Source: Sipunculus nudus
Lineage: Eukaryota > Annelida > Sipuncula > Golfingiida > Sipunculidae
DNA: 64,000 nucleotides
Assembly: GCA_026874595.1 (NCBI GenBank)
Contig: CM049317.1
Coordinates: 13,322,882 to 13,386,881 of the forward strand
Reading direction: 5' to 3'
Positions 8,956 to 52,328 of this stretch are shown here, piece by piece. The notes under the pieces were generated by a model. It did no database searches, was not told the origin of the DNA, and saw only the letters and a list, made by a program, of their open reading frames with translations. Numbering within the stretch: position 1 is the stretch's first letter; each line of letters starts with the position of its first letter. Made by a program: the position numbers and the translations under genes.

Positions 8956-8959
8956 CTCT

Positions 8960-11279: not shown

Positions 11280-11281
<2 letters not shown>

Positions 11282-12457: not shown

Positions 12458-12613
12458 ATGAACGTACAAATATTTACTGTACATATAATGGTACTGATGT
12501 TTACACTTTTGTCTAGCTACTGCTACTGCAGTTACGGAGAGAACATAAATAAAACATCACTGGTGAAAAAGACGAGTCAAAAGTATGAAAACGGAGGGAA
12601 AACGTCAGATAAA
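12458..12613 (+). CDS. Possible first coding exon of a small secreted peptide (unrecognised)
   Basis: The ATG at 12458 sits directly after an in-frame TGA, so the start is fixed if this is coding. The first 26 or so residues look like a signal peptide (a hydrophobic run with VLMFTLLSSYCYC), followed by a polar Lys/Asn/Ser-rich segment with one KK. A possible donor (AAAG|GTATAT) lies at 12613/12614, and reading through it ends within 14 codons at 12655. A T-rich acceptor (GATTTTAG) ends at 12438. An earlier out-of-frame ATG at 12445 weakens the case. No family is recognised and no second exon was found. It could be chance. Confidence 0.22.

Positions 12614-13476: not shown

Positions 13477-13477
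<1 letters not shown>

Positions 13478-13511
<34 letters not shown>
13478..13511. repeat. (AT)n microsatellite
   Basis: Uninterrupted AT run. Confidence 0.95.
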
Positions 13512-13516
<5 letters not shown>

Positions 13517-13734
13517 AAGCAATATTATTTTGGGACGGATCGGTAAATTGAAATTTACAGCTCTCTGATGGTAAATCGGTACAACATCTCCTTATGTCAC
13601 TGATTCCAAACTGAATTAAATGACTTCTTACTTTTGCTTATTTTCGGCTCTCCCACAAAAGTTCATAAGATTTGATATAAGACCTTTCTGAGTTATTTTG
13701 TGGACAAACAAGATAGGAGCCGCGTTCGTGGTTA

Positions 13735-13803
13735 TGACGTCATAATGATAAAATAGTGGAGCCATCATGTGACCTTGATGACGTAATAGGAATGGATATA
13801 AAA
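13735..13803 (+). promoter_or_regulatory. Candidate double-CRE + TATA promoter
   Basis: TGACGTCA at 13735-13742, TGACGTAA at 13779-13786 and TATAAAA at 13797-13803. The predicted start is near 13827. The first ATG downstream (13892) opens a 39-codon ORF ending at 14011 with no recognisable features. The motif cluster is real, but a transcript is not shown. Confidence 0.3.
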
Positions 13804-14094
13804 TAGGACAACCTCTACTGGATAGGGTTTCCTTATTTTAGTACACGCAAATCAGGCCATCTGGTCCTCAAGAGAAAAACAAATAAAAATAATGGAAAAA
13901 ATACAAATTGTCAGAAATCGACGAGCGTTGCGTCTGTTTGTCTCAAACGTTTCTGTTAATTTTAATGAAATTTTGAGGGCGACAAATCCAGATTTGAGAA
14001 TAAGTTACTGACTTTTCGGGAAATAATCAAGATGATAAATTACATCGATGAAGATCAGTTACAGCATTTTAACAATGACGAAGTCGTGTCAACA

Positions 14095-14890
14095 ACATGA
14101 GAGTCCGAGTGCAAGTCCGAGTCAGGTCACCTGAGTCGAAGTCCGAGTCACTGAGAGTCGAGCTAAGTTTCCTTTCTTCAAGTCCGAGTAATTCAGAACA
14201 AGAGTCAAAGTCCGAGTCTCAGTCCAATACAAATTGCCTTATAAAAAGACATTTGAAACAGAAATTTTAGATTGTTATGTGTAATCTATATAAGTTTATT
14301 TATGTTTGTTTGTTTGTTTGGCTTTTATTTCCTCCAAAAATGAAGATTATACAAAATATACAAGATATCAATATTAGAACAATCATTGGTTACAGTGTTT
14401 ATGAAACTTTTCAAAGTATTATTATTAGTACTACCATCATCAGCACCATAACCATAATAACACTATCATTAATAATAACAATAATAATAACAACAATAAT
14501 AATAACAACAATAATAATAATTATAATAATAAATATCTTAATGAAATAAAAGCAATACTAACAACATCAAGACAGCATTATATATACAAACAAGAGTCAA
14601 CGTCCGAGTCTCAGTCCAATACAAATTGTCTTATAAAAAGACATTTGAAACAGAAATTTTAGATTGTCGTGTGTAATCTATATTAGTTTATATATGCTAT
14701 TTACTTGTATGTTTAATTACATTAAGCTCCCGATGTCCTCTTGATGGTCCCTGGGATTTTAGTAATCAGGACGTGAGAACTATGAAAGATAACTCGAGTC
14801 CTGAACTCGGTGTCCGAGTACAAGTTCGAGTCCAGAACCCTCGAGTTCAAGTCCCAGTCCCTAAAAAGTGGACTCAAGTCCTATATCAAT
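14095..14890. repeat. GAGTCC/GGACTC repeat element with internal 100-bp direct duplication
   Basis: Blocks rich in GTCCGAGTC and GAGTCGAAG occur at 14098-14220 and 14590-14625, with further copies at 14795-14885. A block of about 100 bp (from CAGTCCAATACAAATTG to GTGTAATCTAT) is present twice, at about 14187-14297 and 14592-14700, nearly identical. An AAT/ACA triplet tract (14452-14533) lies between. Related elements occur at 51245-51625 and 61010-61450. Confidence 0.75.
14452..14533. repeat. (AAT/ACA)n triplet tract
   Basis: Imperfect AATAATAACAAC array between the two copies of the 100-bp duplication. Confidence 0.85.
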
Positions 14891-15639
14891 GGTGCTCTCT
14901 GCTGTGTGAATGTTGTTCTGGGGGAAATCGTTCGTGAAATGATTTTTGAATACCTGCGTCGACTGAGTTTCCTGAAGACCAAGTACGGAATACCTGTTAT
15001 ATATAAACATCTCAACCATGGTCACGTGGTTACCAGGGCTGCTACGGGAGATCACTTATATATTGATTATCGTTTTATTGAAGTTATTGATGAGTGATAT
15101 GATATTGATCTTTTTAAAATTAACTATACATTAAATTCGCCATATAATTTTTAACAATTTGTAATTTTATATAGTTCACAAGTTTACATATGTAAATCAA
15201 TATTTCTCAGCCATTCAGATTTCTAAAACTATCTTAATACAAAATACGGAGTTGCAAATATTAAATGATGGTAGGTTTTTAACTGGGTTACCGAGTGCTT
15301 TGATCCATTATGGCACACGCTATGCTGCTCATCTTTGTCATTACATTTGCAATGGGAACATTTATCTAGCGACTAGTGGTTTTGCACTAAACTTTTTAAT
15401 CTTATGTTCAGGGATATACGCATATCCAAACTGAGATATATCGGCTCAACTAAAAGAGGCTCCCCTGCATTTCCTATAAGGACTAAACTCTTTCGGTCCC
15501 CTAAATCATTTTGAATGTTAACAGAATAAACTAGAATGGCTTTGTATTTGCAGCGCTAAAACAGATATATGTCTCCCCCTATGGGCCATCCCAAAACATT
15601 AGGGGTAAAAAAAGCACTATCTCAAAACAATAATTCTAG

Positions 15640-16205
15640 TTTCAGCAGATTTGACCTTGAAATTCACGGTCACTACTTTTCGAACTCCGATTTGAACTGG
15701 TGTGTCAAATTTGAGGACAAAATGTGAAATACTTATATAGTTATGGGGTTCAAATCAATTTCAAATTTCGGCAGATTTGACCTTGAAGATGAAGGTCAAG
15801 GTTTAGCATTCCTTTCTGAGATTTCATTGGGAACAATGAGTGTTTAAAAGAGTGTATGCAGCCCTTAAAAAATTATCGCGTTCACATGAAATAACTATTA
15901 TTCGACCGATTTGACCTTGAAGATCATGGTCGAGGTCACCGGCTTTCAAACTCCTCCTGGTAAAAACAATTGGTGTACCAAATTTGAGGACAAAATAATA
16001 AATACTTCAAAAGTTATGAGGTTCACAAAACTTCACATTTCGGCAGATTTGACCTTGAAGATGAAGGTCAAGGTCACCAGGTTTTGAACTCGTCCAAAAT
16101 TTTTGGATGAACAATGAATGTTTAAAACTTTGGAGGAAATTATGCAATTCTTCAAAAGTTATCGCGTTCACAAGATATCCTACAGACGACGACGACAGAC
16201 GATGG
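15640..16205 (+). repeat. Tandem array of TTTGACCTTGAAGATGAAGGTC units
   Basis: GATTTGACCTTGAA starts at 15648, 15774, 15908 and 16046, a spacing of 126-138 bases. Units 1 and 3 resemble each other (CCAAATTTGAGGACAAAAT), as do units 2 and 4 (AACAATGARTGTTTAAAA, TTATCGCGTTCAC). The true unit is therefore a dimer of about 260-270 bp. The array ends in a GACGACGACGACAGACG tail, as in dispersed invertebrate repeats. Short ORFs over it are artefacts. Confidence 0.8.
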
Positions 16206-17825
16206 CACTGAAAACAACATGTCTTTCCTCGAAGGGGGGATATGAAAAGCAATACGTCTATATGAAGACAAAGAAAGCGCCCTTTTTTTGCCCATACAAA
16301 CGTTGTTTTAACAGTGTGTTCCAGGGTATATTTTGACGTGTAGTAGATCCTTATTTGTTTAGTTGTAATGAAATACGTGCCATTGTAATTCTATATTTGT
16401 GTGGTTTTCAAATGTAATTTCTCAACCATGAAAAAATAATCGAAATTCATCTATCGTATCAAGGCAAACACAGCATTTAATTGGCTCTGGTATGAGTTTG
16501 AAAACATTCTATTATCTTTCTGTAATGATTATATATATTTCGTCATATTTTCATTCATAAGTCATAATCATCATATTATATAAATGAGTTATATATAGAA
16601 ACTCGAGAACAAATAGTAATGATTTAGCCTTAAAATTAAAATGCCACTGCCTGTAATGATCATGGTCGATTGGACTTCAACTGTTTTTTAAGTGGGCCCT
16701 TTAGGTCGTGTTTTATGCTGACGGAGAAGGCATGAGTTTATGAAGTTCTAAATTTCCTCTCTAACTTGTGTAAATCACGTTGTATGGAGCTTATAATCCC
16801 ACCCAGTTTCACAAGTAGACTTGGGACCAAATTGTACTATCTTAGTCTATAGCTATAATTATAGTCACCCAGCAACACAGGTATCCTTGACAATACCGTG
16901 ATCTCTGTATCATATGGTGGTAATTGACGAACCATGTTCGTGAAGATGAGAGTAAACACGGCCTCAACTCTCTGCCATCAATCTCGGTCAATTATACTGC
17001 ATGCCCGCTCCTTTCTGTCCCGTATATGACACCTATGTTATGGTCGCTGCGCAGACTCGGACTCACAAGAGAACGACGCTGCTGTTTAAGGTTTTTGGGC
17101 TCACAATCTGAGCCCCACAATGCAAGGCGCGGCCGCTACATAAAAAGATGGCGCAGGTATAAATATGGGGAAGGGGGTAATATAGTTCGTTACAATACAG
17201 TGGATAAGAATTGTTTCAAGGCAAATTACATAATTATGAATGTTTTGTGGTAAGGACTTCACGGAATAAGCAATTAATAGTTTGCAAGCATTCGCATGTG
17301 AATTGTAAACAGAAGGTGTTCCTCGAAATGTAACAAATTAAATTGTACAGTTTGATAAATGAGACAAGTAGTTTCGGCCGTCCAACAAGGCCTAACAGGA
17401 GGAGATTCGTTTTGAGTAGAAACGATCTCTGGCGGAAGGATGATGTTATGGTAGTGTGTCTGCCATGGATATCACAGTTACTCCAATGTCAACAGAAACC
17501 TATAAGATAAGATACCACCAGAAGATACAAGAGAAAGATAACACCCCTCAGGGATTAATTAAGTTTTGTTCTAACAAGCAATCAGATCATTACATAAACC
17601 AACATTCTTTCCGGACGATGCTTGACCTTTTTATGAATTATTTTAATTTAGAATTTCCTCACATTTATCTTACTTTTGGATATTTTATTCTGATATTTTG
17701 GGACGATCATTGACGCCGAGTTCATTAAAAATGAAATGGTTCCTAATGAAAGAAAGCTTGGATGCGCTTAGCCGGAACATGCCGGACACTTGCAGTTTGA
17801 ACTACACAAATAAACTAAAAATCTG

Positions 17826-18105
17826 CATCCAAAGAATGCGAGCCTCCGCCATGCGAGGGTTCACATTGTGGGATACGCCTCAAACCATGTTTGCATTCAC
17901 TTATTCAGCCCATATTCCCAGATTAATTCGTGCAAAAGTGACTATATATTTGATGACGTTCCTGAAAACGGATCATGCAGCGCCTCCACACCAAAATCTA
18001 GTCAATTCTGCTTTAGCTCATTCCCAAAATGCCTGATAATCATGAAATTCCATTCATGATTGCGTGAGTGATGTTGTCATCAACACAATCACACACACAC
18101 AAACT
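17826..18105 (+). mobile_element. Non-LTR retrotransposon 3' tail, copy 2
   Basis: Matches the element at 9955-10322 in order: GAATGCGAGCCTCCGCCATG, CTTATTCAGCCCATATTCCC, ATTCATGATTGCGTGAG and an (ACAC)n tail. It is diverged and has small indels. The ORFs crossing it are not genes. Confidence 0.55.
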
Positions 18106-18794
18106 AACGGGCATGGACGCATACCCGCCTGATGACACTATTAATAGTAAAGGGGGCTACGGCCTTATCATAAGTCAACAGGCCATTTGTTAAAGGGGTA
18201 CTGTTTGGACAACAATTTCGAGGTAAACAGAATGAAAAGGAGAGCACTTCGGCAGGAATAACAGGATTTGCGGATGTCCTGGATGTATATGTATCTCAGT
18301 TATCATTTGTTGGTCTGTCATATGAGACAAAAAAGGTGAAGGGGATTTAGTACACATCACCAGTAACAAAAAAAAAATATTTTTTTTAATAGGCTCAGTC
18401 ATATAACAGACCTGGCCCTATCAGTTGCTGCCCTCTTGAATCCCAACGGTTTACTAATTTAATACGTTTTTGTTAAATCACACTGATACACGGGGAGATT
18501 TTGGCATAAGTTACCACCGAGAAATGAGTATAAACTGTGTACATGTATACCTTGTCATGGCATCGCTATGCCCCATTTATGAATTATACGTACGTATTGT
18601 ATACGAAGTAGTGTTATGACTTTTGAAATGTGCATCAGGTAATGAGATGGAATTAAACGGTTATTTACATACCTACATTTTATTTCCGTGTCACTGCGGG
18701 TGAGCGAAAATAGGAGAGCGTAAATACAGTGAAACTGAAGTTGGAATCTATAATATAGTAAACACGGTATACATACTGTTGTGCTGAATGATTA

Positions 18795-18965
18795 CTAGTC
18801 CAGTGGTTAAGCGCCTATATTTGGAAGAATGGTGCAAAAAATAAAAGAAGCATAAGAATTTGGTTAAAGTTTTCTTTGGAGGTAAATGATTAATTTCAGA
18901 AATTGGACCAAGCTGAAAATATACTATCTTGGCCAAAATCCAAGGAAGCGGCTGAGTGACCACCA
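18795..18965 (+). repeat. Dispersed repeat, copy A of an adjacent pair
   Basis: Begins with a tRNA A-box-like AGTGGTTAAGCG, then GATTAATTTCAGAAATTGGACCAAG, CTTGGCCAAAATCCAAGGAAG and ending GTGACCACC. It matches copy B at about 19115-19290 block for block at low identity. Confidence 0.5.
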
Positions 18966-19114
18966 GATTAAAAGATGTTTATACCTTCAGTTACAATGTC
19001 CTTAAAAACAAGTACTCTTATTTCTATGTTTTATGGGCTAAGAAATTCTTTTGTTTTGTTCAAACTCTCTACAGGCACTCATTAGCTGTTTTTAGCAGAA
19101 TTTTTGCAATAATC

Positions 19115-19290
19115 CCATTAATCAAGCGGTTACACTGATATCTAGAGGAATTATGCAAAAGATGACAGAAGAATGAATCTTGTCAAAATAATTGTCCAGA
19201 CCATCATCAATATTTTCAAATATGGGGCCAAGCAGAATTCACCTTGTCTTGGTCAGAATCGAAGAAGACGACTTAGATGGCCGCCGAATA
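19115..19290 (+). repeat. Dispersed repeat, copy B of an adjacent pair
   Basis: CAAGCGGTTACACTG, CAATATTTTCAAATATGGGG, CTTGGTCAGAATCGAAGAAG and ATGGCCGCC follow the same order as copy A. Both are decayed and head in the same direction. Confidence 0.5.
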
Positions 19291-19568
19291 TAAGAATAAC
19301 ATCAAATCTGGTAATATGTGTCCAAGAATGCAGTGCAAGTGCACTATTTCTTTATTTTGGGGGGTCGAGAAATCCATTTATAAGGGTTTAAAGTCTGTAG
19401 ATTGACTCCGTGAATGAAATCTGGTTTCATTGGTATTGAAATGTGCTAAAATTGCCGTTTTACCAGCGCATCGAACGACAAACTTATATTTTGATACTTT
19501 GCTGAAATGATTATTTATGTTAATTTTAAGTATTTGAACATTATGTCTCTTTCAATATAATGAAAAGG

Positions 19569-19735
19569 ACAGCCAAGTGGTAAATCGCCCGGCTCTCTCC
19601 ACTGGAGACTAAGGTTCTATCTCCGGTTTTTGCTTTGAAAGTAGGCTGTAGTGGCCCGCAAAAGGTCGGTGGTATTCTCCATATCATCTGATTCCGACCA
19701 CCCCTACCGAACGCCGCCATCTGAACCATGGAGAG
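19569..19735 (+). mobile_element. tRNA-derived SINE with a central domain
   Basis: The head has AGCCAAGTGGTAAATCGCCC (A-box region) and GGTTCTATCTCC (B box). The body, AGTGGCCCGCAAAAGGTCGG followed by TGGTATTCTCC, recurs inverted at about 22010-22105. Sharing a body with a second copy supports a SINE family rather than a degraded tRNA gene. Confidence 0.55.
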
Positions 19736-20109
19736 TGGCTTGTATAAGTAATTATAATGGTTGTAAAATAAAATTTGTTTATAATTTTTATATTAGAATG
19801 AATGCGTGCATGGCAGGATACACCCACGTAGAGGCTCACACCTGTCACATTTATAGATTCAATTACTCTTTTGCCTTGAGGCACTGTTGCAGCTTTCAGA
19901 CTCTTTGCTTGCATAACGACAGAATCACTACATATTTAAAGGCTCATAACATTACGCCGTATGATATATTTTCTTATTAAAGGATAGGTTTAGGCCTGTT
20001 GGTATTTTATTGGATTTATAAGATTTTCCATACGGTAAAGAAGATATGTTATTAGAAAGAAGTCATAACCTTTCGTTAAGACATTAGAGCAAATCTTTTT
20101 GTTTCTGGT

Positions 20110-27364: not shown

Positions 27365-28400
27365 TTATAAGGTAGTAGCGGTAGCAGTATTAGTAAAAAT
27401 AGAAATTGTAGTAGTAGTTGTAGTAGTAGTAGAAGTGGTAGTAGAAATAGTAAAAGTAGTAGTTGAAGTAGTTGTAGTAGCAGTAGAATAAGAAGAAGCT
27501 GTAGAAGTAGTAGTAGTAGTGGAAGAAATAGTAGTGGAAGTAGTGGTTGTAGTAGTAGTAGTCGGGGGAAAAGTAGTAGTAGTAGTTTTAGTAGTAGTAG
27601 TAGTTTTAGTAGTAGTTTCAGTAGTAGTTTTAGTAGTAGTAGTAGTAGTAGTAGTTTTAGTAGTAGTTTTAGTAGTAGTAGTAGTAGTAGTTTTAGTAGT
27701 AGTTTTAGTAGTAGTAGTAGTAGTAGTAGTAGTTTTAGTAGTAGTAGTAGTTTTAGTAGTAGTAGTAGTCGGGGGAAAAGTAGTAGTAGTAGTTTTAGTA
27801 GTAGTAGTAGTTTAAGTAGTAGTTTTAGTAGTAGTTTTAGTAGTAGTAGTAGTTATAGTAGTAGTAGTAGTCGGGGGAAAAGTAGTAGTAGTAGTGGTAG
27901 TAGAAGTAGTAGTAGTAGTAGTAGTAGTTTTAGTAGTTTTAGTAGTGGTAGTAGTAGTAGTAGTAGTAGTAGTTTTAGTAGTTTTAGTAGTTTTAGTAGT
28001 AGTACTAGTAGTAGTAGTTCGAGTAGTAGAGGTGGAAGTAGTAGCAAAAGTAAAAGTAGTCGAAGTAGCAGGTGAGGTAATAGGAATAGTAGCAGCAGCA
28101 GCAGCAAAACAGTAGTAGTAGTGGTAGAAATATTAGAATTGATAGGCCTATCCAAAGTAGTAGCAGGCAGAGTGGTAGTGGTAGCAGAAGCTTTCAAAGT
28201 AGTAGTAACAGCAGAAGTAATAGTGAAGATAGTATCAGCAGCAGTAGAAGTGGTGCTGTTAGTTGCAGTAGACCGAACAGTAGAAGTGGTAGCAGTGGTA
28301 TTAACATAAATAAGTGGCACAAGAAGGATAAGTATTAGTGGTAGCAGTAGTAGTTGTTGAATTTTTAATAGCAGTAGTGTTATTATGAACAGTAGAATTG
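27365..28400. repeat. About 1-kb AGT-triplet array with higher-order spacers
   Basis: Long (AGT)n runs alternate with TTTAGT variants. The 12-base block TCGGGGGAAAAG interrupts them three times, starting at 27562, 27769 and 27871. After about 28020 the array decays into GTAGCAGAAG-type triplets. Long Val-rich (plus) and Leu/Thr-rich (minus) ORFs across it, including a 197-codon one, are triplet artefacts. Confidence 0.9.
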
Positions 28401-28449
28401 CCAAAAATATAGTGAGTTCTCCATTGGAGATAACAAAATCAGCCATCAG

Positions 28450-30960
28450 ATGAAAAATATCCCAAAAAACATTAACACCTATTTTTGAATAACATTGGAT
28501 AAAAATCAGAGCTATTATAAATATGACATGTTAATATTTGGATATTTTTCAGTTTTACTGAGTGTTAGGTTATTTCCAGGAACCAAGATGGTCTGAAAAG
28601 ACGTAACAATTCGGGGTGTTACTTAGAGGAGGATAATAGCCAATTACCAAATGTCATGACTGCATAGCATGCATGGCATCAATTATCAATATTGGTTTGG
28701 TGTTGGCTATAATCTAAGTGTCCGTTTCAAAAGGTGCATCCTAAGTATAATAACCTGACTCAGGCCGCACCCAGCTGGTTAAGGATACATGTTCTGAACT
28801 TGTTTATGTTAAAGTGATAGACGTGGTGTGTATCTGTACAGAGTGTATACAATATGGGCCTTTTTAGAAATGGACTAATGTTGACTGGTTCGCCCAGCTA
28901 CCAGTGATCAAGACGGAGAGCTCAATGCACTAATGGCTACTAATCCAATCTAAACAGGCTCTCATTTGGAATAAATGCCACATATATGATTTTCACATCT
29001 TGTATTCATGTGCGTCATTACAGGGGTGTGTGTATATTTATCCCCCGCATTTTGATAAGGTGTATTCACCCCCCACCCCCACCGCTCTTCAGAGGGTAAG
29101 ATATATATATATATATGTATGTGTGTTTGTGTGCGCGCATATGGCGTTTATGTGTGTATTATGTAGAATGGATTAAATTAAGTTTTTAGGCATTGTACTA
29201 TGAACAGCTATGTATATATTGACTTTGTACAACTGTGTACACATATATATATATGTGTGTGTGTGTGTGTGATGGAACGATCAGGATTTACAAAAACAAA
29301 GTTGTAAATTACCCTTTAAGTCATCGCCACCCCCCCCCCCCCCCCGCCCCCATCCCAAACCATCACGATAAATTGACGCCGCTGTATGTATTTGACGTGC
29401 TTTTCTGCGTTCAACAAACACGCCTGGTGAAGTGGTCCCTCTACCTTCGTTCAAAAATTCCTCCTACATTATCACTGCTTTCCTTTGCATTGTTGGCTGG
29501 GTATGTCCACGGAGGGATGTTGACACAAGGTAAAGGATCTTCTTATCGTTTGTAATTCCTATAGGTGGTGCTGAAATGTTTATTCTTAGGCTAGCACAGT
29601 TTTATTATCTTTATAAATAGGCTGTGTTATCAACATTGTACGTGTTTTGTGTTGCATTCATTTTTTCACTCATTGATGAGTGTGATTTGTATATGCATTT
29701 AATACAAAAATATGGAAACATCGTATGCCAATGGCTGTCTCGAACGTTTAAGAAAAAGGTGCAGTATTTTCTTTCCGTATTTTCCTTCTTCCGTTTATGC
29801 TTTAGAAATTCAGCTACCAGCGGTGGTTGGTTTAGGTGGTCGTTCTTTGCAGAAAGTTTAACTCTAGCAAAACAGCGCTGTTTGTTTTGGTAAGGTCTGT
29901 GTAGCCGAGATGGAATACCTGATGATCTAATAACCCTGAAGGTCCTGTCAACACACTCATATATAACTTATGTAAATAAAGTGTTATAGGGAGATTCGGT
30001 TCAGTAATTGCTTGCCTGTAAGAAGTAAAAACAGTCATATTTAGCAACTAGTTTCGATCCGAAGTATATATATATTATATATATATATAAATGTTTGATT
30101 TTATAGTCACATATCTTAATATCAAGAATAGAGTATACCGTTGTTTATTTCTTCTGTATACAGCTGGACAGTATCTTCTGATGTGATTAATATGCTGAAA
30201 CACTGTAACGCCTAACTGTTTATTGTATTTCGAATTATTTTACTTTTATACTACAAAGTTCATGACATGACCACGCATTCACAAACCTTGAATCCACGAC
30301 CCTTATGTCATATATTTCATGAATAATAAATATGACCACTTAACCAATCAAATGACTGCCGTACACTTGTTTTACGCGGATGTCTGGGGGAAAGTTTTGA
30401 TCACACGTTCAGCATTGCCGGGAAGGCGCCGGGAATCTAACCATTTCTGGTACATATGTTCTTTTTCAAACATTGTGTGAACGGTGTAGTGTTGTTAATA
30501 TGATATTCTATTGACTGGGGTTGATTGACAGTTGTGATTTCGGCCCGAACACTTGAAGTCTTGCTCATTATTCATGAAATAGATGCGAGAGAATGTCTCG
30601 AAGGTTTGTGAATGTGTGGCCATGTCACAGATTCGGTAGTATGAAGATGGATACTTTTTCTCCGACATAATTCAAGGCAAAGTAAGAACACAATCTTCAA
30701 CTGAGACATTCGGCAGAATACCACTCGCAACCGAGATGATTTGCATTTGTCATCCTGGCGTAGTTGCCTGAAACGTTATCCAAAAGATAACGTGAACACC
30801 AGTACTGACTATATAATATGTAACGTTGTTCGGTTAAGATTAAATAAACGTACATAAACATACAACATCACACCAACAATAAACCTGAGAATGACGTTAC
30901 TTCAAATCTTTAATAGAAAGTAACATTCGGTGGTCTGGTGTAGACAATCAGAGAAAACAG
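28450..30960. other. No supported gene; simple repeats
   Basis: Contains AT tracts near 29101 and 30066, an (AT)n(GT)n tract at 29243-29271 and a poly-C tract at 29329-29350. Two ORFs with hydrophobic segments (ending at 29555 and 29893) lack convincing starts or splice sites. Confidence 0.4.
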
Positions 30961-30972
30961 AGAACAGGCTCA

Positions 30973-31413
30973 TCACGTGAAAGGAGTCACGTGACCACGT
31001 CATAAACGATCACGTGATCAAGAAGTCTCGTATTTTCTAAGGAGAGAAATAAGTTCGTTAGTTTCAGATTCATAAATTGGTGACACTTTTTTCACACAAA
31101 TGTTGACATAATAAATATATACGTATTCTGTTCAATACAACATGCATATTACAGAACAGATAGAGACAAGGGGTTTTTCTTGCCCCCGGTATTTGAGCAC
31201 GTCCAGGTGAACGAATATTTCGCACATCTGGGGTTAAGCGGTGCAAGTAAGCACCTAAAGACGGCGTGTGCCTCAAAATATCACTGAGTCTGCAGTTTAT
31301 TTTTTTTCCTCGGAGAAAAAAAAAGATTTTCCGTAACATCGTGTTTCTGCGCATTTAACTCATAAAAAAATTATATGCATTGTCGAGATATTTGCAAGCT
31401 TCTTGTCACGTGA
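30973..31413. promoter_or_regulatory. Cluster of four TCACGTGA E-boxes
   Basis: The palindrome TCACGTGA occurs at 30973-30980, 30987-30994, 31010-31017 and 31406-31413. It is the E-box form bound by MITF/USF-type bHLH-zip factors in animals. The cluster lies around and beyond the 3' end of the luqin gene. Function is inferred from motif density only. Confidence 0.3.
31296..31301 (-). terminator. luqin: Polyadenylation signal candidate of luqin
   Basis: AATAAA on the minus strand, 188 bases after the luqin TGA, with a plausible 3' UTR between. Confidence 0.5.
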
Positions 31414-31489
31414 CATATTTTCGGTTCTCTGATAGGTCAGTGGAGACACCTATCGATCAAAGGCGAGAACACGGATAGGAATTCAGAGC

Positions 31490-31532
31490 TCACTTCCTCT
31501 TGATGTTGGTGGTGGCGTCATTGTTGGTCCAT
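31490..31532 (-). CDS. luqin: Luqin terminal coding exon
   Basis: A strong pyrimidine-rich acceptor (TCTCCGTTTCTGCAG) is followed by one base completing Arg88, 13 codons (WTNNDATTNIKRK) and TGA. It was found by extending from the phase-2 donor at 33042 and is too short to stand out alone. It is less certain than the first two exons, but phase, acceptor quality and a prompt stop agree. Confidence 0.78.
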
Positions 31533-34500
31533 CTGCAGAAACGGAGAGAAAATATATTGAATTTAGAGGCATATTAAAGAGCAAAATTCTAAGCCAAACA
31601 TTATTTCATCATAAAATACCATATCAAAAGGTACCATATACAGGGGCTTTACTTTAATTTTGATAGCGCTCCAGTGACGAGTATTTACTATAATATTACT
31701 CTGAAAATTACGATTTTTAAAAGGGCCCTCCGACTCCCTAAAGTTATAGGGGCCTATCCCAATATCTAACGGGCATTAGATAAAGATAATTCATTGCTAC
31801 TTGTAATAATCTTGGTAAGTGTATGTCACTGAAACCCTAGACCAAGTCGTTGAAGACCTAGCGATCTTAAAGTGTATTGTCTCAATGAACAAAACACAAG
31901 GTCACGACATGCAAAGTTCAGCATCAAATAACTATAACATGGTTTTAACTGGACAACACTCTAGGCCGATTGGAAAGTAAAAACCTTTTCAGACTGAATA
32001 GATTACATCCAGATGTGCATTTTGGGATTCTTGAGAAAATAACAGATAAATAAAGAAAATCAATTTTTCTTTTTTTTTTTAATTTAGTTCGATGATATGT
32101 TTGTCAGCTAAGACGTAAGCAGGATAAACACCTTTCTATTAAAATCTGTTATTCTTTGTTTAAAACACGCACTCAAGGTTTCATTAGGTAAAATGATTTT
32201 TAGGCCCCATTTTTCCATATATCAGTGCCGGGGGGGGGGGGGGCATTTGTTATACTTTTTTATTTTATGTTTTTCTTATATTGATTTGCTAGGTAGGTAA
32301 ATGCATAACATACAAAAAGGTTTTATCGGATATTTTAAATTTGTTTTTAATGTCCGACCACCGGGAGCTCAAAATCGGTAAATTTCGTAAGAAAACAAAT
32401 ATAAAAATGTCATGTGCGGGGGTGCTGGCGCTTTCTGAGTAAACAATCCTTTTCGGCCTTACAGCATAAATTCAAATCCTTTGTCTTGTTTCAGCCTGGG
32501 GGATGGGGGGGGGGGGGGCAGATTAACATGTTCCCCTCGCTCTTTCAGATTTTTTGTCCCTTCACATTTTAGGGAAATTATTCACACAATTTCCAAATAA
32601 TCAGTTTACAGTTTCGTCATGTCTTCCTTAATAATATTCCAGGTATACATCTCAAAATGTGACCCTTAAGGATTTTATGTCAAGTGACTCATTGAATTGT
32701 CTTAAAAGTAAGCCTGTTTTTATTAATGTTTAAATCAAAACTTATTTTCTGAATAATAAAGTGCTGTTATCATTTTTGTATGATGAAAATACACATACAT
32801 ATACATATACGTAATTCATATATGGTGGGAGTGCGCAAATTGACGATATTCAGGGAGAGAGATTTTGTCTTGTTTGTCATAAAGGCGGGGGTTATTGTTC
32901 GGTGATATTGACCAGAGGAGCTAGAGGTTCTATTCTGTTAGTATTCCTATCAATTGCCCCCCCCCCCCCTTTCACATTTCCTCAGCAAACTATCCCCATG
33001 ATTTACTTGAGTTTATACATGTACATATCATACCTCCGTACCTGAAACATCTGTAGAGTCCTGGGCGTGACACGTGGACGCACATTCCGTCATCTCCGGG
33101 CAGCTGGAACAAGGGCGTGTCTTCGAAGCTTACGGGGTGGTTCTCGTGTCCAGCATCACCTGAAAAAATATAGAAGGCATTCAATGGAGAGCAGATGCTC
33201 CCGGAAAGGCTGAAATTACACTCTCAAATACGAGATGGTAAAATCATGATCATGGAAAAATTAGGAAAATACTTAGAAAAAGTAATCCTGTATAGCGATT
33301 CATTCTTCAGTGGATTTCGTTGTTGGTGCTTCCGTTGTCTACTCTACCAAGAAGCTGTTATTATTAAAGGCGTGGTGGTGAAGTAATAATAAGAGAGGGG
33401 ACATGTGACCTAAAAGAAATGATACATGGTTGATATATCCCTCTATAAAATAATTCTAAAATTTAAAAAGTCCTTTTCAAAAATACCGAAAATAGAAGAA
33501 TAACAATAAAAGTTTAAATGTTCAAACAACAAAACATTCTCCAGTTGAGTAGAGCGTTGATTACCTGATTTATTAATTACAATATTTTATATAATATATT
33601 GCAATTTTAGTTCACTCCCCGACGTCACCATCGCATCTTAAATCATACCTATTCATTTTTCATTTTTACTGTAAGTCGGTTATGATAATTTATTTGTGTA
33701 ATATTAGCCCAGTTAAATATAAGGGCCGGGAGCGGTGTTTCCACAGTATATAGAGTGGGAACACCAGTTCTGGTTCCTTATAGGGTCCTTTTATGGTTTT
33801 CCTAATTGCTGTCTCGCGTAACCAGGTATTACAAACGAATCACCTAGCTACGTAAAGCAAACATAAACGAGTCTAGGACTTTTCAAAGCCAGATTCATTT
33901 TGTTTAAAAAATATTTTAAGTGTGGTACTCGGTTCTGTCGAGACTGTAACATTAGCATGTGTACAATACTATAAAAATTAAATCATTTTAAGTACAAGGA
34001 TACAACACCTATGGCCTGAATGGATTTACATCAGGGATATCAATATTGTTAATCGCGCGATACCGAAAATTTCGACATGCGACCTGAGGCATCCGTACGG
34101 TGGATGATTTAGGACACAGAAAAAAAATATTTATCTCGAGATCTCGAGATAACATCTTATCTTAAGATAACATCTCGAGATCTCGACATAGAATTTCGCA
34201 AAAAAAATTAGGAAGCAAAAACAAAATTTTAGTAAGATAAAAAAAAAAATTTTAGGAAGCAAATAAAAATTTGTAGGAAGCAAAAAAAATTACCTAGATT
34301 ATGTTTATGATTACCTTCACTTCTTTAATATGTATATGCAAAGTTAGCCTGTATTAAAAAGGTTCTATAAATAAGACAGGTGAATAGCGACTTTAAGACC
34401 AAAGCAGAGCATTTTGCTGAAGAAAAATCATGATGAGAGATGATCGAAATATTTAAACCTTTTATTTATGAATATAAAACATTTATGAAGATAGGTTGAC

Positions 34501-37500
34501 TAAAGGTAATCTGAGCTAAAGTTATAGCTATAGTGGATCAAGACTTGGGCTTTAGGGGCTGAAGCACCCCCCCCCCCCCCACCCACCCCTCCGCCCAGCG
34601 TACCTTTCCGAAAACACAGTAATAATTTTTAGCATATTTTAATTTATGATGGTCTAATACATGTTCCGTAAATCAACACACCATTTCAATAAAAACAAAA
34701 GCTGAAAAAAATTGTACAAAAAGCGTGTTTCTATAAGAAGCCCATATTTGTTTGTATTCTAAAAAGTATAAGGTACCCACAATGCATGCATGCAGACCTA
34801 AACATTTCTATTTGAGTGATTTAACAGCCATTACTGCGAACCCGCCGTTCAGGTAGAATGTTTCAGTTTCTTTAGGCTTTGACATCTTCCTTACGGATAT
34901 GAATAATTACATATTGAATTTATATTGAACTTTTCTTCAACTCGCCTTATCTTAGGGGATGTACAAACTTGATTGATTTTAAATTAATTATATTGTTTTA
35001 CCGTTCAGTTAAATTAAGTGTACATGGTCTTTGTTTATAATTGCAATAGTTAGCACTCTTAACGTATACTGTCCCCATAACGTTGTTTTGCTTTATGTCA
35101 ATTTAGCTTCGAATACAAGTGTGACATTTTATCTGGAGATCTCGAAATATATATATTTTTTGCTTCCTAAATTTTTTTTCGTGTCCTAAAATTTTTTTTG
35201 TTTCTAAAAATTTTTTTTTTTTTGCTTCGTATTATTATCTTTCTGCTTCGTAAATTTTTTTTTTTTGCTTTCTTAAATTTTTTTTTTTTTTTGCTTCCTA
35301 TAATTTTTTTTTTTTCTTCCTAAAATTTTCTTTCTGCTTCCTAAAATTTTTTTTTTTACTTCCTAAAATTTTTTTTTGCAAAATCCTATGTCGATATCTC
35401 GAGATGTTATCTCGAGATCTCGAGATAAATTTTTTTTTTTTTTCTGTGTCCTAAATCAGCCACCGTACATCCGGGTTTTAGTGTGTACGCAAAAATCTAA
35501 GCCCACAGAGAAACTGGAGGAAAAAACCCTGACAAGGGGATGCAACACGAAAATAGTTTGAGGACAGCGTCCACTGGTGGATCTATCAGCGGAGAGATTT
35601 TGGTGGCAAGGGGGCAAGTATCGGCAGAGGTTAAAAGGGAATATCACTTTTTTATACCACGCCCGAATACATGACATTGCATTTAAACCACTGTTGTAAC
35701 CCCAGATGCTCACAACCGTGCAAAATCTGTCTTTATGGGTACTTATTTATATTATCAGGCTTTATTTCTTGAAAATGAACGTAAAATTAATAAACACTTA
35801 TTGAATATGGTTACCATTTATTTTTCATAATCTACGTCGGGACACACTGTTATAAGCGGAATCAATCATAAAACCTAAACAGAACAGGCTCTCACGGTGC
35901 AATCAATATGGTATTCATTACAACGAGGTCGGAATTGGGATTGGCTGGCGCAATCGAGTATGACAAGATGCGATTTATCTGCACTCGGTCAGGTTGCATA
36001 ACTAGGGTTTCCGGTCAAATTAACTGTGTCTTATTCCAAGATTCATTTCAATTTATCGATGACGGATATATATAACATATAGCTACATGGTAGGATTCAG
36101 CAATTACTTGGAACGGGTATGACCAAAATCAGATATGATTTTCGAGGAATTCAGGCCATCTCCTCGCACTAATATATAGCATTGCACGTTATCCTGACAG
36201 GCTTAATATATTCGTTAGTGAAACGGACACATTTGAACCCTGACGTCACGTCGACTATGACGCCTCACCTCATCAGACCAATCACAAAGCTGGAAAAAGG
36301 AGGCCCATCATGTACATTGCACTGCTTCATATCATGTCTGCCTAGGTTACCTGGTGCATTCCGGAAACTAAATATCTGACAAGTGCTTGAGTTTGAATGA
36401 AAATGAAAAAAAAAATCAATAATTCTAGAAAATAACACCCTCTTTTTAGCTTTACAATCCCAGAAAAGAGACACTTCCTTAACTTCAGAACAACAAGAAA
36501 TCTTTGCTCTTCTTTCGTGTATCCTTTATTTGACCGAAAATGATGTAGAATTTAGAAATTTATTAGTCAAGCGATTTTTAAGGAGAAATGTATTTGAATT
36601 TTAACCTCAGTAAATGTAGGAAAATTGTCAGATTTCCAATGCCTGGTGAAATCTGATATTTGTCATTGATATAAGGTATTTGTTTTTGAGTGAATAAGCC
36701 ATCGGATACGTGATGAATAATACATGGGAAGGATTAGGTTAATATCTAAAAGCAATGACAGTATGGCATACGAACATAACTTGATATGTATTTTGATTCG
36801 TTTTATTTATGGATGCTAATACCGTAAAAACGTCGCCTCAGGGTCGTGCTTAATGTATTAGGATAGGGGCACCTGCCTGGGGGCTCCAAGGGTATAGAGT
36901 TACCAATGCACGCAAATGACCATTAAATTTTGAAATGTGGAATTACAAAAGAATCCCTAAACGGGCAATTCGTCACTTATAGGTTAGAATGGTAAAAATA
37001 TTTTTCGCATTAGCTATTTATACATAAAGCGCTACCCGGCAAGAGAAGTTTCTCCCGAGTTCTATAGCCATAGCTGCTGTCTTGTTGTTCCCTGCGCTAA
37101 GCTGCGCTGTCCGACAAAAAAATCGTTAATTTTAAAATAGAGACATTCCAATCACCGATAAAATTGCAATACCTCGGTCAAAAAGTGTAGAATGAACCCA
37201 AGAATATGGACCGAAAAATGAAAGCAAACAAGGTTTTTGGAGCACCCCACAATAGGGAGGCTTGTTTTCCTGAGAATGCAGATGTATAGTTGTTAATGTA
37301 ATTTAACATTAGAAACATTTGGATTATAGACAACTGAATTATTCTGGGCAGGAGGTAAGGTCGGGTCACGCATTAGTTGGTTTATGTTGCACTAAATAAC
37401 AATATCCCTAAACGTTTTTCGGATTGCTCATCTACGAAACTTCTTTCATCAATAAATTTACGCATTGTCCTTGTTTCAGAGGACTGGGTAGGAGGGCGAC

Positions 37501-38426
37501 ATGTCCCGCTCATTTTTTTTTTTTTTTGTTTTCGAGTAGGGAACAAGGTAAAGGGGGGTTATTTAATCAAACAATGTTGAAAGAAACATCAATTATTTTC
37601 CTATAAAACCAAAACGTACATTCCTAATATACAGTGGGAGGGAAGAACATTATTACATTCTGGGAGGACCCTTTCGTTCTTTCTGTAATGAGATGGTTGT
37701 TGTCCATTGGGATTTTAAGTATGGAGTCCTTATTACGCGGTCTGCCTGCATGGGTGGATCTTCAAGGCCCATGAATTTAAGATGAAATAATGAATATATC
37801 AAACAAAATGTTAACAAGATGTAAGTAATCGATTGGGGGCGAAAACCTAAAACCTGAAGCCCAACACACCTCCCCTGTACCCCAAACCAAGCCAATTCCT
37901 AAGCGATAATGGGGAAACATCCATGGCGTGTACGACCTTGAGAAAAAGACAAGGCCAAAAATAAACATTAGGAGCAAACATTTCATCTAGAAGTAATATC
38001 GTGCTCAAAATTCCGACATACTGGAGATTTAACGCAAAAAAAAAAATGGCGGAAGAAAGAAAACAAAGTGAGATCGATTGTTTTGCACACGGGGGTGGGG
38101 GACCGAAGTAAGTCCATATACATAAATAATTTACCGAAATATGAGTAAAGACATAAATTCATTTACCCATAAAAGCCTCTCTTTTCATTTTAAAAGATAA
38201 TGACAAATTTAAATGCGAATTTCAAATTAAAACAAAAATAATGTAAATATAATAAGAAGTTTAGAATTTAGAAAGACAAACCTGCTGCGAGTGTGTGCAC
38301 TGCATCCTTGACCCCCATACGTTTGCCAAATCGTCCCTGTGGGCGCCAGTACCCGAATGCAACGCCATCCAGTGACAAGGCGAACACCAAAATCACAGCC
38401 AGAACACAGTTGCTTCCCGTTGCCAT
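31490..38426 (-). CDS. luqin: Luqin neuropeptide precursor, three coding exons (38426-38282, 33159-33042, 31532-31490)
   Basis: The spliced product is 101 residues. Residues 1-23 form a signal peptide ending GVA. Residues 24-33 are FGYWRPQGRF followed by Gly34-Lys-Arg, giving an amidated peptide with the WRPQGRFamide core of molluscan luqin. Cys75 and Cys86 form the C-X10-C pair conserved in luqin/RYamide precursors. The chain ends NIKRK before TGA. Junction phases agree: 48 codons plus 1 base, then 118 bases, then 43 bases including the stop. All four splice sites are strong: CAG|GTTTGT, TTTTTTCAG, CAG|GTACGG and TCTCCGTTTCTGCAG. The introns are 5122 and 1509 bases. Luqin peptides act on G-protein-coupled receptors related to arthropod RYamide receptors and affect feeding and cardiac physiology in gastropods. 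The N-terminal FGY differs from the classical APQ of Aplysia and Lymnaea. The signal cleavage point is predicted. Confidence 0.93.
31533..33041 (-). other. luqin: Luqin second coding intron
   Basis: 1509 bases with G/C homopolymers at 32229-32242, about 32507-32518 and 32956-32970. About 32345-32430 (GTCCGACC…AGCTCAAAATCGGTAAATTT, GCGGGGGTG, TTTCTGAG) is a relative of the MITE at 22663-22955. Confidence 0.75.
32200..32445. mobile_element. MITE-like relative of the element at 22663
   Basis: Shares AATGTCCG, GAGCTCAAAATCGGTAAATT, the A-rich block and GCGGGGGT with the 22663-22955 element, but the ends are poorly kept. It lies inside a luqin intron. Confidence 0.4.
33042..33159 (-). CDS. luqin: Luqin exon with the conserved cysteine pair
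   Basis: 118 bases between TATTTTTTCAG and the donor CAG|GTACGG. It encodes residues 49-87 plus two bases of residue 88, including CVHVSRPGLYRC. The linker before the cysteines is acidic and has no dibasic site, so it is probably a spacer. Confidence 0.92.
34095..35468. mobile_element. Non-autonomous inverted-repeat (foldback-like) DNA transposon, 1374 bp
   Basis: The left end starts GTACGGTGGATGATTTAGGA and the right end is its inverse, TCCTAAATCAGCCACCGTAC, with one mismatch. ATCC flanks both sides (34091-34094 and 35469-35472), a 4-bp target duplication. Inside each end lie perfect palindromes built on ATCTCGAGAT (34131-34191 and 35385-35428). Next come reiterated AAAATTTTAGGAAGCAAAAA-type units, about three on the left and about nine on the right. 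The centre is unique AT-rich DNA without a transposase. It lies wholly within the luqin intron. Confidence 0.8.
36241..36285. promoter_or_regulatory. CRE + CCAAT motif pair inside the luqin intron
   Basis: TGACGTCACGTC at 36241-36252 and ACCAATCA near 36278-36285. No TATA box or exon follows on the plus strand. It could be an intronic enhancer of luqin or chance. Confidence 0.2.
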
Positions 38427-38441
38427 AGCGACACTTGTGCT
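38282..38441 (-). CDS. luqin: Luqin exon with start codon, signal peptide and active peptide (CDS 38426-38282)
   Basis: The acceptor TTCGTTACAG lies just before 38441, followed by 15 untranslated bases, then ATG at 38426. It encodes residues 1-48 plus one base of residue 49. The whole active peptide and its GKR site lie here. Donor CAG|GTTTGT follows 38282. The acceptor means at least one upstream non-coding exon exists. Confidence 0.92.
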
Positions 38442-40421
38442 CTGTAACGAAAAACCAATATTGTGCGTAATTTAAAGCAAACAAATCATTTCGCTGATCT
38501 TGTAAGGCATTTAATTGCTAAATGACAGCTCTATAATAAACAGATAATGCCATTTATAATTCTGGAATTGCATACAACCGTTTAGAATTTAAAATTTAAT
38601 GATGATCGATTTATCTGCTGCGAGCGGTTTCATTAATGACACATTGTGATAAAACACTTAATGTGTCTCCATATTTTGTCTATTGCAAGACAATTTTAAA
38701 ACTATATAACTTTGAATCAGAAAGATTGTCACGAAGTTTTGGAAATTATCCAGGTCATACGTTACCGTATAGGCAAGGCCGCATAAACATCACTTCTCGT
38801 TTTTTTTAACTGTCTGCAAAAAAGAAACTAGTAAAAACCCTCCATTGTCTATCAGAAACCTGAATGTCTTAACATTTTTGTTAATTCGCGCATGAAACCA
38901 AACTCCATAACACATCTGCTTTATTATCTTATCTGCCTGCGATAGGTGAGTACATAACACTGTAGATTACGCCTAGGAGCAAACACCTGGCATGATATGG
39001 CTTTATTCTCACGATCTGGCGAAAAACATTACATGAATCTGTGATTATACAAAGAAAGACGTATACTTTTACTTTTTCTTTTGGGTTAGATCTCTCTACA
39101 GAATCGAATGTTGCTCAATAAAAGACTCTTAGCAATTTCAGACACAATTTTAAAATGTACCGATATGCCAGTTTGTATCCTGTAACATATGATGCCAGCG
39201 TATTTCCAGATAATGTTCAGACTCTGCCCTGTGTGACTTTCTTTTTCTATTCATGTACAATATATTTAAGTCATGTATAGCAGTTTACATATTGTAATGA
39301 AAACTTTTCATAGGCTAATGTGCTACAAGTACGATTCATTGAATTTTCGACGAACCATGTTCGTGTCATGTGACCCAGTATGGCTGATTTTGTCAAGTTA
39401 AACCAGATACGTGATAAGGTCTCGAACAGAAACCTAGCGTTCAACGCAGTTCCTTATTATATTTTTATCATTTGAAATATAAACAAATAAAGTGGGAATA
39501 AAATATGCCCAAACACCTATTGTCATTCGCTGTCATCAAAGGTCGCTAGTGTGATGGAAATAATCTGGTAGAATTAATATATAAGAATATATATCAGAAA
39601 AAGTATTGGCGTCCTAATTTTCTTATAAATGACAAGTTTCTTATTTATACAGTTATCATAGGCTAAACAGTACCATAAAATGCAGAAACTGTAATGACCC
39701 TTTACATGAATTACAACAACTTTAACCAACGTGATAACTCGTGAAAACTTTGCTATTTAATGTTAATCATCATAAACATGCTTCATTAAGCGTATTAAGT
39801 ATGCTACAGCATAATATATTTTAATATAAAATTTACCGGTACAGAAATTTATAACTGTATTGAACGTTTTAGCAAAAATCACGATTAGTTAGGATAAATT
39901 AAAAATAAGAAAACCTTAGCTGAAAAAAATAACAAATGAATCCGATAAATGATCACCGACTTCATTGAGTCCATTTTACTTAAGAGACTGGTGTAACAGA
40001 TGAGGGATGATCTATGTTCACCTGTCAAAGAGTACTGAGACTTTTGCAATCTCGGTGAATAAGGCGCCATCTGGGGGGTCAAGACCCTATTTACGCCTTT
40101 AGTGCACTCCAAAGACTTCATAAACCTGTGTAACCAACACAGACTGCGGAATATGAAAATCTGTCAACTGACAGATACGTGAATTTGTAGTTCGTCTTTC
40201 ATTTTCTGATTTAATTTGAAGAGTCTTAGTGAGGAGTTCCACCATGTCGATATTCCAGGAGGGCCCCAAGCAATATCTGCGAGAGGTTTCAGTCCTACTC
40301 AATGAGCAACACATTCTCTTCATGAGCCGCCATATCGCGTCTGGTATGACAACCAGGCCCATTTACGCACTTCGTGCCCAGGCGGTTATCATAACGCCAG
40401 GGCACTATATTTCAATAAAGC

Positions 40422-44370: not shown

Positions 44371-44522
44371 GTAATAATAATAATTAGTAATTAATTAAAA
44401 ATAACATTATTATTAGTAGTAGTTTTAGTAGTAGTGTAGCAATATTATTTTTAATAAGAATAAGAATAAGAATAATGATAATGATAATAACAATAACAAT
44501 TATTATTATTAATATTATCATG
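44371..44522. repeat. Mixed AAT/AGT/GAATAA triplet tract
   Basis: AATAAT, TTAGTAGTAG, AATAAGAATAAG and AATGATAATGAT runs in succession. Confidence 0.8.
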
Positions 44523-44529
44523 ACGAAAT

Positions 44530-46870
44530 CGTTAATGAAAGAGTTATTTTTAGCTTATTAATCAAAGTGCAAAGAACACTTAATTCTATCATCAGTAAAA
44601 GCTAAAATTAAAAAAGGGTTCCAAGGAGACTGAATGTTTTATAACTTTTACGTTTATAATCATATACGTTTTAATCATTGATTTTTAACATGTTGTTACA
44701 AAACTTTCCCGTCAAGCCCGAGTGCTTGTTCAGCAAACGTGACAAACAGAAAGATTAAAAAGGATAAGTAATGAGTCTCGAAGGGGAAATAAGAGCCGGG
44801 TAAGCGTCCTTAAACAAAGGGAATAAAAAATCACCGTCAGAGGTTAACTGTCATTAGTCACTCACGGTAAGGTTTATGCCAAGGATTTAACGTGTGTTTT
44901 ATTGTCTAATTTAGCGAAAAGAAACGTTTCGCTAATTACGGTACTGACAATTAAAAGGAATCAGGCCGCCAAATGTGATGGAAACTTTCTATTTTGGTTA
45001 ATGATTGACAGGTAATAGACACAAAATAAGTGTGACCCTAATGGGTAGGTTTTGTGTTTGATATAAGTGATACCAACCACTAATTTGATAACAGTGCTAC
45101 ATACATTTATTGACGATTGATTAATGAAAGAAATCATTAAAACAATTAGGTCTGGGGAACCATGCAGGTCAAAGAGACGTAAGTATTCCTGTGTCAACAA
45201 CATTTTTATCTCAAAATGTAAGTCATTTCTTCGAGTTACTTCACGAGATATCACTTTATAGAAATTGATATTGTTCTGAATAAATATAACAAAATAAACA
45301 ATTAAAACAATTGTTGTAGTTTCATCTGTCGGTTCAATCTAATTTTCAAGTTTAATCTCTAACTTCAGTATCATCGTTTTTTAGCAGTGTAAATAAATTT
45401 GCTGTCTATGCTTTGCATGGATGATTGCTTATATATACTGAGATAATGGACAAGGGTGGAGGGGACATAACTAAAGATCTTTTATATATGATTTTACAAT
45501 GTATGGTACAATTGTAAAAGCAATAAATTTATAGAAAGCCATAAAAAATGTGACTCCTTGCATAAAGAAACAAATATTTCGAGTCTCCCAACTCAACCAG
45601 CTAATTCCAGTGCACTTACATTTAACTTATATAGATTCGGTATTTGAATTTAAAATGTCCCTAACCGAATACACGAGCACACAAGCATGCGTTCTGTACG
45701 ACTGAGGTGTTCATTTAATGCAGATATACAGATACTGATATGCGATCACAAACATTTATATTAACTCATGTGTTAAAAAAAGCTGCCATTGCCGAATGAA
45801 ACTCCTCCGTCAGTAAACATCGTTGAACAACTCCGTAGTTTTACATAAGCCCCTATAAAAACTATACTATTTTTGGCTTAACACAATTATTTGTCGTATG
45901 ATTTATTAAATATCCCTTCAGCTTTTAGTATCCTGGACTCCTAAATCAACATTTATTTATCATATTTTGTCAAATCTGAGCTATCAAGCAGTAAATGTAA
46001 CGTACATTAGTTCGGGTTTGTGTTAAGTTTCTGAAAATATCCCACAAGGTTTTTTTCATTCTTGTTTCGTTACTGCAGTATAATAACCCTCGGTGGCTAG
46101 TGGATGCTTACTTGCACAGCACACCTAATACAAATTAATACAAGACTATCAAATGAACTTAATGCATAACAGATAGTAGCAATTTATACAATGAAGCGAC
46201 ATTAAGGTTAATGCAAAGTTTTCATATTAATAATGCCTTAAATACTCGAGTATAGGTCGTGCGGCCAGGTGCATCGATTTTCTACACGCTGTCGGGAATG
46301 GCATTCATTTACTCGGCCAAGAACGTGACAGGTCTTGAATTAGCTGCTAGACTAACAGCAAAAGAACAAGAGACGGACACCACAATGTCAAAGTCATACA
46401 CAGGGTCGTCCTATTGTTGGCAGCACCTCTGTGGCTGGTACAGTTATGCGCCGTGTCTATATAATGGATGCCTCGAAGTTAACAAATGTCTACTGAAGAA
46501 ATCATACCGTCCCATTGAGGTTTGACGTAAAGGAATAGATTGGTCCCGACCTGCATTGGAAGCCTTTATATGTAGACTGGTACTTTGAACATTATAAACT
46601 TTTGTGCTATATCCAATCAGATAAAGACGAACTGACCCGACATATGGTACAGAGGATTTTATTATTCTCTGATTTAACTACACGGCAATAGTCGAATGTG
46701 TACTCAATAAATTGGTCGTAGCGGGTTTGCCTGAACAAATTGCCTGGACAATCCTGTGTTTTAAGCTTCTAGACCGACCAGGCAGAGGACCTCTGTGGGA
46801 AAATCAGAGATGTATCCCCAGAACTTACACTTATAAAAGGGCACAAACTATTTAAAAAATGCAAGAATGT
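44530..46870. other. No supported gene
   Basis: AT-rich. The ORF at 46259-46525 (plus) has a Cys-rich middle but no signal peptide, and was not accepted. Confidence 0.4.
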
Positions 46871-51934: not shown

Positions 51935-52079
51935 GGTGACATAAAAGCGGACCGAACTGTCTCGCTAGTGAAGCTTGCTTTGCTAGCGAAGCGGTTTGAA
52001 CGCCGGACATGTGCGCAACCGACATGGGTTCGAATCCCGGATCGGCCCAATGTTTTCCCCTTTATCTTCGTAAAAAAAA
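51935..52079 (+). mobile_element. tRNA-derived SINE, copy 1 of a direct pair
   Basis: Starts GGTGACATAAAAGCGGACCG, has AGCGAAGCGGTTTGAACGCC (A-box/D-arm-like) and GGTTCGAATCCCGG (B box, from 52027), then GGCCCAATGTTTTC and a TCTTCGTAA tail. It carries an extra 24 bases (CTCGCTAGTGAAGC region) that the second copy lacks. Confidence 0.65.
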
Positions 52080-52204: not shown

Positions 52205-52328
52205 GGTGACATAAAAGCGGACCGAACTGCCAGCGAAGCGGTTGGAACGCCGGTCTTGTGCGCCACCGACATGGGTTCGACTCCCGGATCGGCCCAATGT
52301 TTTCTCCTGAACAATTTGTCTTCGTAAC
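52205..52328 (+). mobile_element. tRNA-derived SINE, copy 2 of a direct pair
   Basis: Same head, A-like and B boxes and tail as the copy 125 bases upstream, without the internal insertion. The minus-strand ORFs over both copies share the reading TLGRSG.RTHVG, a shadow of the repeat and not a protein. Confidence 0.65.

Follow-up and report, generated by a model that had tools for sequence, protein, structure and literature searches.

On the minus strand of a 64-kb window of the Sipunculus nudus genome assembly (C12:13322882-13386881; the window is the whole stretch analyzed, with an N content of 0), three coding exons make up what is very probably a luqin neuropeptide precursor gene, apparently intact. 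Coding exon 1 (38426-38282; 145 nucleotides, nt) starts at an ATG, encodes a predicted 23-residue signal peptide, the peptide FGYWRPQGRF, a glycine as amide donor, a KR cleavage site, and the start of a C-terminal peptide, and ends in phase 1. Coding exon 2 (33159-33042; 118 nt) continues the C-terminal peptide and includes its pair of cysteines, spaced by ten residues (C-X10-C; core MCVHVSRPGLYRCF) and ends in phase 2. Coding exon 3 (31532-31490; 43 nt) completes an arginine split by intron 2 and adds WTNNDATTNIKRK and the stop. The two introns, also given on the minus strand (intron 1, 38281-33160, 5,122 nt, phase 1; intron 2, 33041-31533, 1,509 nt, phase 2), have GT..AG ends. The spliced coding sequence of 306 nt translates into 101 residues and a stop, and the precursor reads MATGSNCVLAVILVFALSLDGVA followed by FGYWRPQGRF, G-KR, and MGVKDAVHTLAAGDAGHENHPVSFEDTPLFQLPGDDGMCVHVSRPGLYRCFRWTNNDATTNIKRK. 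An earlier note on this DNA had proposed this three-exon gene; all of its junction coordinates are exact, its phases are consistent, and the introns that it put at 5.1 kb and 1.5 kb have the lengths given above. It was also right that no single open reading frame shows the gene, but a list of open reading frames would miss any spliced animal gene in this way, and the absence is nothing special.

Motif content supports the identification as luqin. Chance was gauged with 60 dinucleotide-preserving shuffles of the window, read in six frames. The pattern WRPQGRF-G-(K/R)-(K/R), which the earlier note had picked out as FGYWRPQGRF-GKR, has a single occurrence in the window and none in the shuffles, and a chance origin was rejected for WRPQGRFG[KR][KR]. 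The cysteine core of exon 2, C-VHVSRPGLYR-C, is in phase with exon 1. Compared with the oyster luqin peptide VCVESNVPGLFKCY (PMC4200219), the core MCVHVSRPGLYRCF is identical at 6 of 14 positions, and three others are aromatic-for-aromatic or basic-for-basic. A pattern composed after viewing exon 2 and the oyster peptide, CV-x4-PGL-[FY]-[KR]-C-[FY], has one occurrence in the window and none in the 60 shuffles, and the looser C-x5-PG-x3-C likewise has one (0.083 per shuffle on average, with 4 of the 60 shuffles having as many). The exon 2 cysteine motif carries weight through its agreement in phase with exon 1, its position at the expected end of the precursor, and its longer PGL core, as in the oyster peptide.

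Composition and splice sites are consistent with the same exons. G+C content is 0.559 in exon 1, 0.576 in exon 2, and 0.488 in exon 3, against 0.350 in intron 1, 0.353 in intron 2, and 0.364 in the whole window, and windows of equal length as G+C-rich as exons 1 and 2 account for 0.3-0.4% of the 64 kb. G+C at third codon positions of the coding sequence is 0.627. Splice sites were scored crudely against a simple consensus, not with a trained splice model. On this score, the acceptors of introns 1 and 2 rank 3 and 2 among the 359 AG sites of the region. None of the listed alternatives (donors of exon 1, acceptors and donors of exon 2, and acceptors of the last exon) was judged to yield a better supported whole. 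We regard the junction of exons 1 and 2 as almost certainly correct and that of exon 3 as likely correct.

The start of the precursor also has the expected form. A hydrophobic signal sequence, with an 11-residue mean hydropathy of up to 3.4, stands directly N-terminal of FGYWRPQGRF, and 23 residues precede FGY. Cleavage was judged from hydropathy and the -3/-1 rule, by which a cut after residue 23 is acceptable. The sole Pfam match of the precursor is to PF15172 Prolactin_RP (E = 0.11; score of 12.6 bits, the cut-off being 27), which might point to a different RFamide gene, for example one like prolactin-releasing peptide or NPFF. That identity is barely credible: the match is far under the cut-off and spans 16 residues around the RF motif, whereas the WRPQGRF heptapeptide and the C-X10-C region are features of luqins.

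Several observations weigh against the luqin gene as modeled, or against parts of it. The donors are moderate, matching the consensus at 5 of 7 positions, and of 408 GT sites 18, counting these two, score at least this high; the strong splice sites of the earlier note are therefore the acceptors only. Stop-free occurrences of the bare C-X10-C spacing are at chance level (64 in the window versus a shuffle mean of 63.0), and the spacing thus has no weight as stand-alone evidence. Signal cleavage after residue 25, which would leave YWRPQGRFamide, or after residue 21 also fits the -3/-1 rule. The comparison with relatives is drawn from short peptide strings as printed in papers. Finally, exon 3 is the weakest part of the model, its support consisting of splice-site quality, G+C content, and a poly(A) signal, and no protein homology was found that covers its last residues.

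The last point bears on the 3' end, which may be wrongly modeled in an otherwise sound luqin gene: exon 2 could read into intron 2, ending ...RCFRYGGMICTCINSSKSWG, or join another downstream exon. The read-through is open for ∼16 more codons before a stop, the donor at 33007 ties with that at 33042 in the crude score, and, among the 12 candidate acceptors scoring at least 15, the one at 32495 alone outscores that at 31532. AATAAA occurs inside intron 2 too, at 32724 and 32264. We nevertheless consider such a misplaced end unlikely. The 31532 acceptor is the one that ranks second in the region; the site at 32495 consists of a C-tract; an AATAAA lies no more than 190 nt beyond exon 3; and exon 3 exceeds intron 2 in G+C content by the values given above.

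Flanking features fit the three-exon gene at both ends. The AATAAA poly(A) signal (31296-31301, minus strand) is ∼190 nt past the stop and is the sole AATAAA below 32264 within 30490-38900. At the other end, the ATG of exon 1 has G at -3 and +4 and in-frame stops upstream. An acceptor-like TTTTTCGTTACAG ends at 38442 on the minus strand, and 38427-38441, immediately 3' of it, may be untranslated sequence at the 5' end of exon 1. With a crude splice score of 14, this acceptor-like sequence equals another AG at 38530, and a further noncoding exon upstream of exon 1 is possible.

The luqin locus is probably the only copy in the genome, as far as queries with exons 1 and 2 tell. Searches covered the 1.43-Gb assembly of 153 contigs. 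The exon 1 query (29 residues) had one match at E ≤ 0.001, the luqin locus itself (E = 1.1e-13). With E values of up to 10 admitted, the exon 2 query (38 residues) had 13 matches, of which the luqin locus was one, at E = 4.4e-22, and the other 12 started from E = 0.054. Seven of these 12 weak matches were read (L004-L010), and all seven resemble one dispersed repeat with a frame like ...TFEQSPLFPVPGDSGQC...; no PGL-type cysteine core was found within 3 kb of the seven. In local DNA similarity to exon 2, their scores do not exceed 12, which is also the best score among 100 shuffles of one of them (L005). We rejected these seven as a second luqin copy and take their resemblance as due to chance, the repeat being without a luqin core and its DNA similarity at the level of shuffled sequence. 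The repeat itself lies on several chromosomes (C1, C2, C7, and C8), has an open stretch like LTFEQSPLFPVPGDSGQCILVLLPVIHK, and resembles part of exon 2 at the protein level only.

The earlier note had allowed for a better conserved luqin gene elsewhere, with this copy silent. Tested in part, by the two exon queries, this check returned one strong match each, at this locus, although a divergent paralogue is possible. A pseudogene, or a silent duplicate of a functional gene located elsewhere, is very unlikely, given an undamaged frame, retained introns, intact splice sites, and exons 1 and 2 with one strong match each in the whole genome. Searches of other collections added no relative. Viral contigs had 12 pattern matches and no relative, and two matches in the PDB (E of 1.2 and 1.5) are at chance level. 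Prokaryote contigs had 42 pattern matches and one 24-residue match of 58% in a proteobacterial bin (L001), which we take as chance.

The product would be processed as follows. The spliced transcript, an open and phase-consistent reading, would be translated into the 101-residue prepropeptide, and the signal peptide would be removed after residue 23. A prohormone convertase would then cut at Lys35-Arg36 and a carboxypeptidase trim the basic residues, leaving a glycine that is predicted to be converted into the C-terminal amide of FGYWRPQGRFamide, as suggested by the Gly-Lys-Arg sequence and the processing shown in Aplysia. The mature peptide could possibly be YWRPQGRFamide if signal peptidase cuts two residues later. 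The 65-residue C-terminal peptide would be released together with luqin, its two cysteines, ten residues apart, likely paired in a disulfide.

By homology, the effects of the peptide may be mediated by a luqin receptor, a G-protein-coupled receptor akin to those for tachykinins, and its targets may be heart, muscle, egg laying, or fluid balance, as in snails. Snail luqin is described as cardioexcitatory and as acting on muscle and egg-laying cells via a luqin receptor, and the same passage gives the activity of the Aplysia C-terminal cysteine peptide as not known (PMC7041311). In the Pacific oyster, luqin transcripts are reported to be more abundant in the mature stage of spawning (PMC8398477), and strong expression of the gene is reported in pediveliger larvae, although the same survey did not detect luqin in neural tissue (PMC4200219).

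The gene might also yield two isoforms, namely the full precursor and one made by skipping exon 2. Joining exon 1 directly to exon 3 gives an open, frame-shifted reading of 64 residues that retains FGYWRPQGRF-GKR and loses both C-X10-C cysteines, and the Aplysia kidney is reported to make an exon-skipped, frame-shifted luqin transcript (PMC7041311; PMC4208409). By chance, however, two in three exons have a length not divisible by three and shift the frame when skipped; Aplysia-like skipping is therefore suggestive at most, and we hold a second isoform to be possible but doubtful.

Judged by its predicted product, the gene is an ordinary new member of the well-known luqin family, whose small signaling peptides occur in most invertebrates. 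Luqin precursors are reported in all eight class-level mollusc taxa (PMC6425005), and mollusc luqins are all said to have WRPQGRFamide and two C-terminal cysteines (PMC5996578). WRPQGRF is also described as common to annelids, brachiopods, and nemerteans (PMC7041311), and therefore marks a spiralian rather than a mollusc. Close in layout is the precursor of the scallop Patinopecten yessoensis, in which a signal peptide of the same 23 residues is directly followed by a decapeptide ending in WRPQGRFamide, APQWRPQGRFamide (PMC5996578), with APQ there and FGY here. APQ precedes WRPQGRF in all three of the bivalves compared (P. yessoensis, Crassostrea gigas, and Pinctada fucata). The oyster shares the C-X10-C peptide with a PGL core as well, at the identity given above.

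The luqin/L5-67 gene of Aplysia californica is similar in having a single luqin after the signal peptide, a KR site, two cysteines ten apart, and a multi-exon structure. Its exon skipping takes out the cysteine peptide with a change of frame, an outcome that skipping of exon 2 would share here. It differs in its 112-residue precursor, 76-residue C-terminal peptide, and exons E1-E5, compared with 101 residues, 65 residues, and the three coding exons found here. The label "proline-rich" hardly fits the 65-residue peptide here, with its four prolines. Among annelids, the Capitella teleta luqin QFAWRPQGRF shares WRPQGRFamide and an aromatic residue within its N-terminal part, with QFA in place of FGY. 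Ecdysozoan RYamides and ambulacrarian RWamides are members of this bilaterian family too, as judged from their receptor and the cysteine motif at the C-terminus, but they end in RYamide or RWamide instead of RFamide, and many ecdysozoan precursors have two or more copies.

The residues before WRPQGRF are an unusual but minor change, and the earlier note overstated the case in treating APQ as the classical start. The sources cited print (S)APS for Aplysia, TPH for Lymnaea, SGQS for Achatina, and APAPK for Idiosepius, along with APQ and DGAPQ (PMC4208409, Table 4), and QFA for Capitella (PMC7041311). Known luqins thus already differ at these residues, and FGY adds a further variant. Neither FGYWRPQGRF nor GYWRPQGRF was found in the main texts of the literature searched, supplements and sequence databases being outside that search. 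As far as that search goes, FGY is an unreported spelling in the variable part of the peptide and not a new kind of luqin. A more elaborate scenario, in which FGY replaced APQ in the host lineage (or the peptide came to be trimmed to YWRPQGRFamide), the receptor changed to match, and the Aplysia-type skipping of exon 2 was kept, seems quite improbable.

The remainder of the window looks gene-poor. Pfam searches of six-frame readings, with stops as X, gave no domain above threshold in the parts scanned (all six frames for 19998-64000, four frames for 5001-19999, and one further frame for 1-14997), a search in which small exons are easily missed. A sub-threshold match to PF06143 Baculo_11_kDa at 44444-44554 on the minus strand (E = 0.0082; 16.2 bits versus a cut-off of 28.4) is likely due to chance. 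Rfam and tRNA (ARAGORN) scans of the window returned nothing. The window carries (TA)n and (GTA)n arrays, among them a long degenerate (GTA)n-type array at 27372-28044; a 197-residue leucine-rich open reading frame on the minus strand (27853-28446) overlaps it and looks like a repeat artifact. Within intron 1 of the luqin gene, arrays at 34200-34289 and 35156-35377 consist of an A-run or T-run with GGAAGC- or GCTTCC-type units in opposite orientation. Two 81-nt copies that are 91% identical (51981-52061 and 52228-52308) contain GGTTCGA(A/C)TCCCGGATCGG, which we take to resemble the B box of a tRNA-derived short interspersed element; ARAGORN and Rfam report no tRNA there.

Elsewhere in the assembly, nine near-equal bacterial-type cytochrome oxidase I (COX1) genes, of 577-578 amino acids, are located on contigs C60, C61, C62, C66, C72, C74, C75, and C89, with two on C89. 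The stretches read were L011-L018, from all but C75, and L021, from C60; part of C60 had no near match in a plasmid collection. Another bacterial contig, C123 (L019 and L020), has a COX1 match of its own, and by visual reading some of its genes form a deoxynucleoside-catabolism cluster; we rejected a mitochondrial origin for it, its open frames reading as bacterial genes. The bacterial contigs may be symbionts or contaminants, of several strains.

Globin searches of the genome pointed to 14 places, three of which were compared with solved structures. For one globin exon (L023), the nearest structure is "Nerve hemoglobin" 8oup (E = 7.6e-14), followed by Hemoglobin II/III entries such as 2olp and 3pt7, which we take to be hemoglobins of the clam Lucina pectinata. 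The surf clam Spisula is reported to have a nerve hemoglobin (PMC9690805), and 8oup may be that protein. By itself, the L023 globin would make a bivalve a likely, though not certain, host. The other two globins give no pointer to molluscs: the matches of L022 are to plant, vertebrate, and other globins, and those of L027, which are weak, are to cytoglobins first. L022 and L026 are neighboring globin genes (C6, ∼66.4 Mb), each with the globin domain in one intronless open frame, and L022 has the N-terminus MGCGSS. Molluscan hemocyanin (PF14830) had no match in the genome, a result that is uninformative alone since no control genome matched either.

The FGYWRPQGRF gene leaves knowledge of luqin signaling unchanged. 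It provides a complete model of a luqin gene, present once as far as the searches show, which can serve annotation and the search lists of mass spectrometry, and it indicates more variation in the three residues preceding WRPQGRF than is seen in the bivalve examples found in print.

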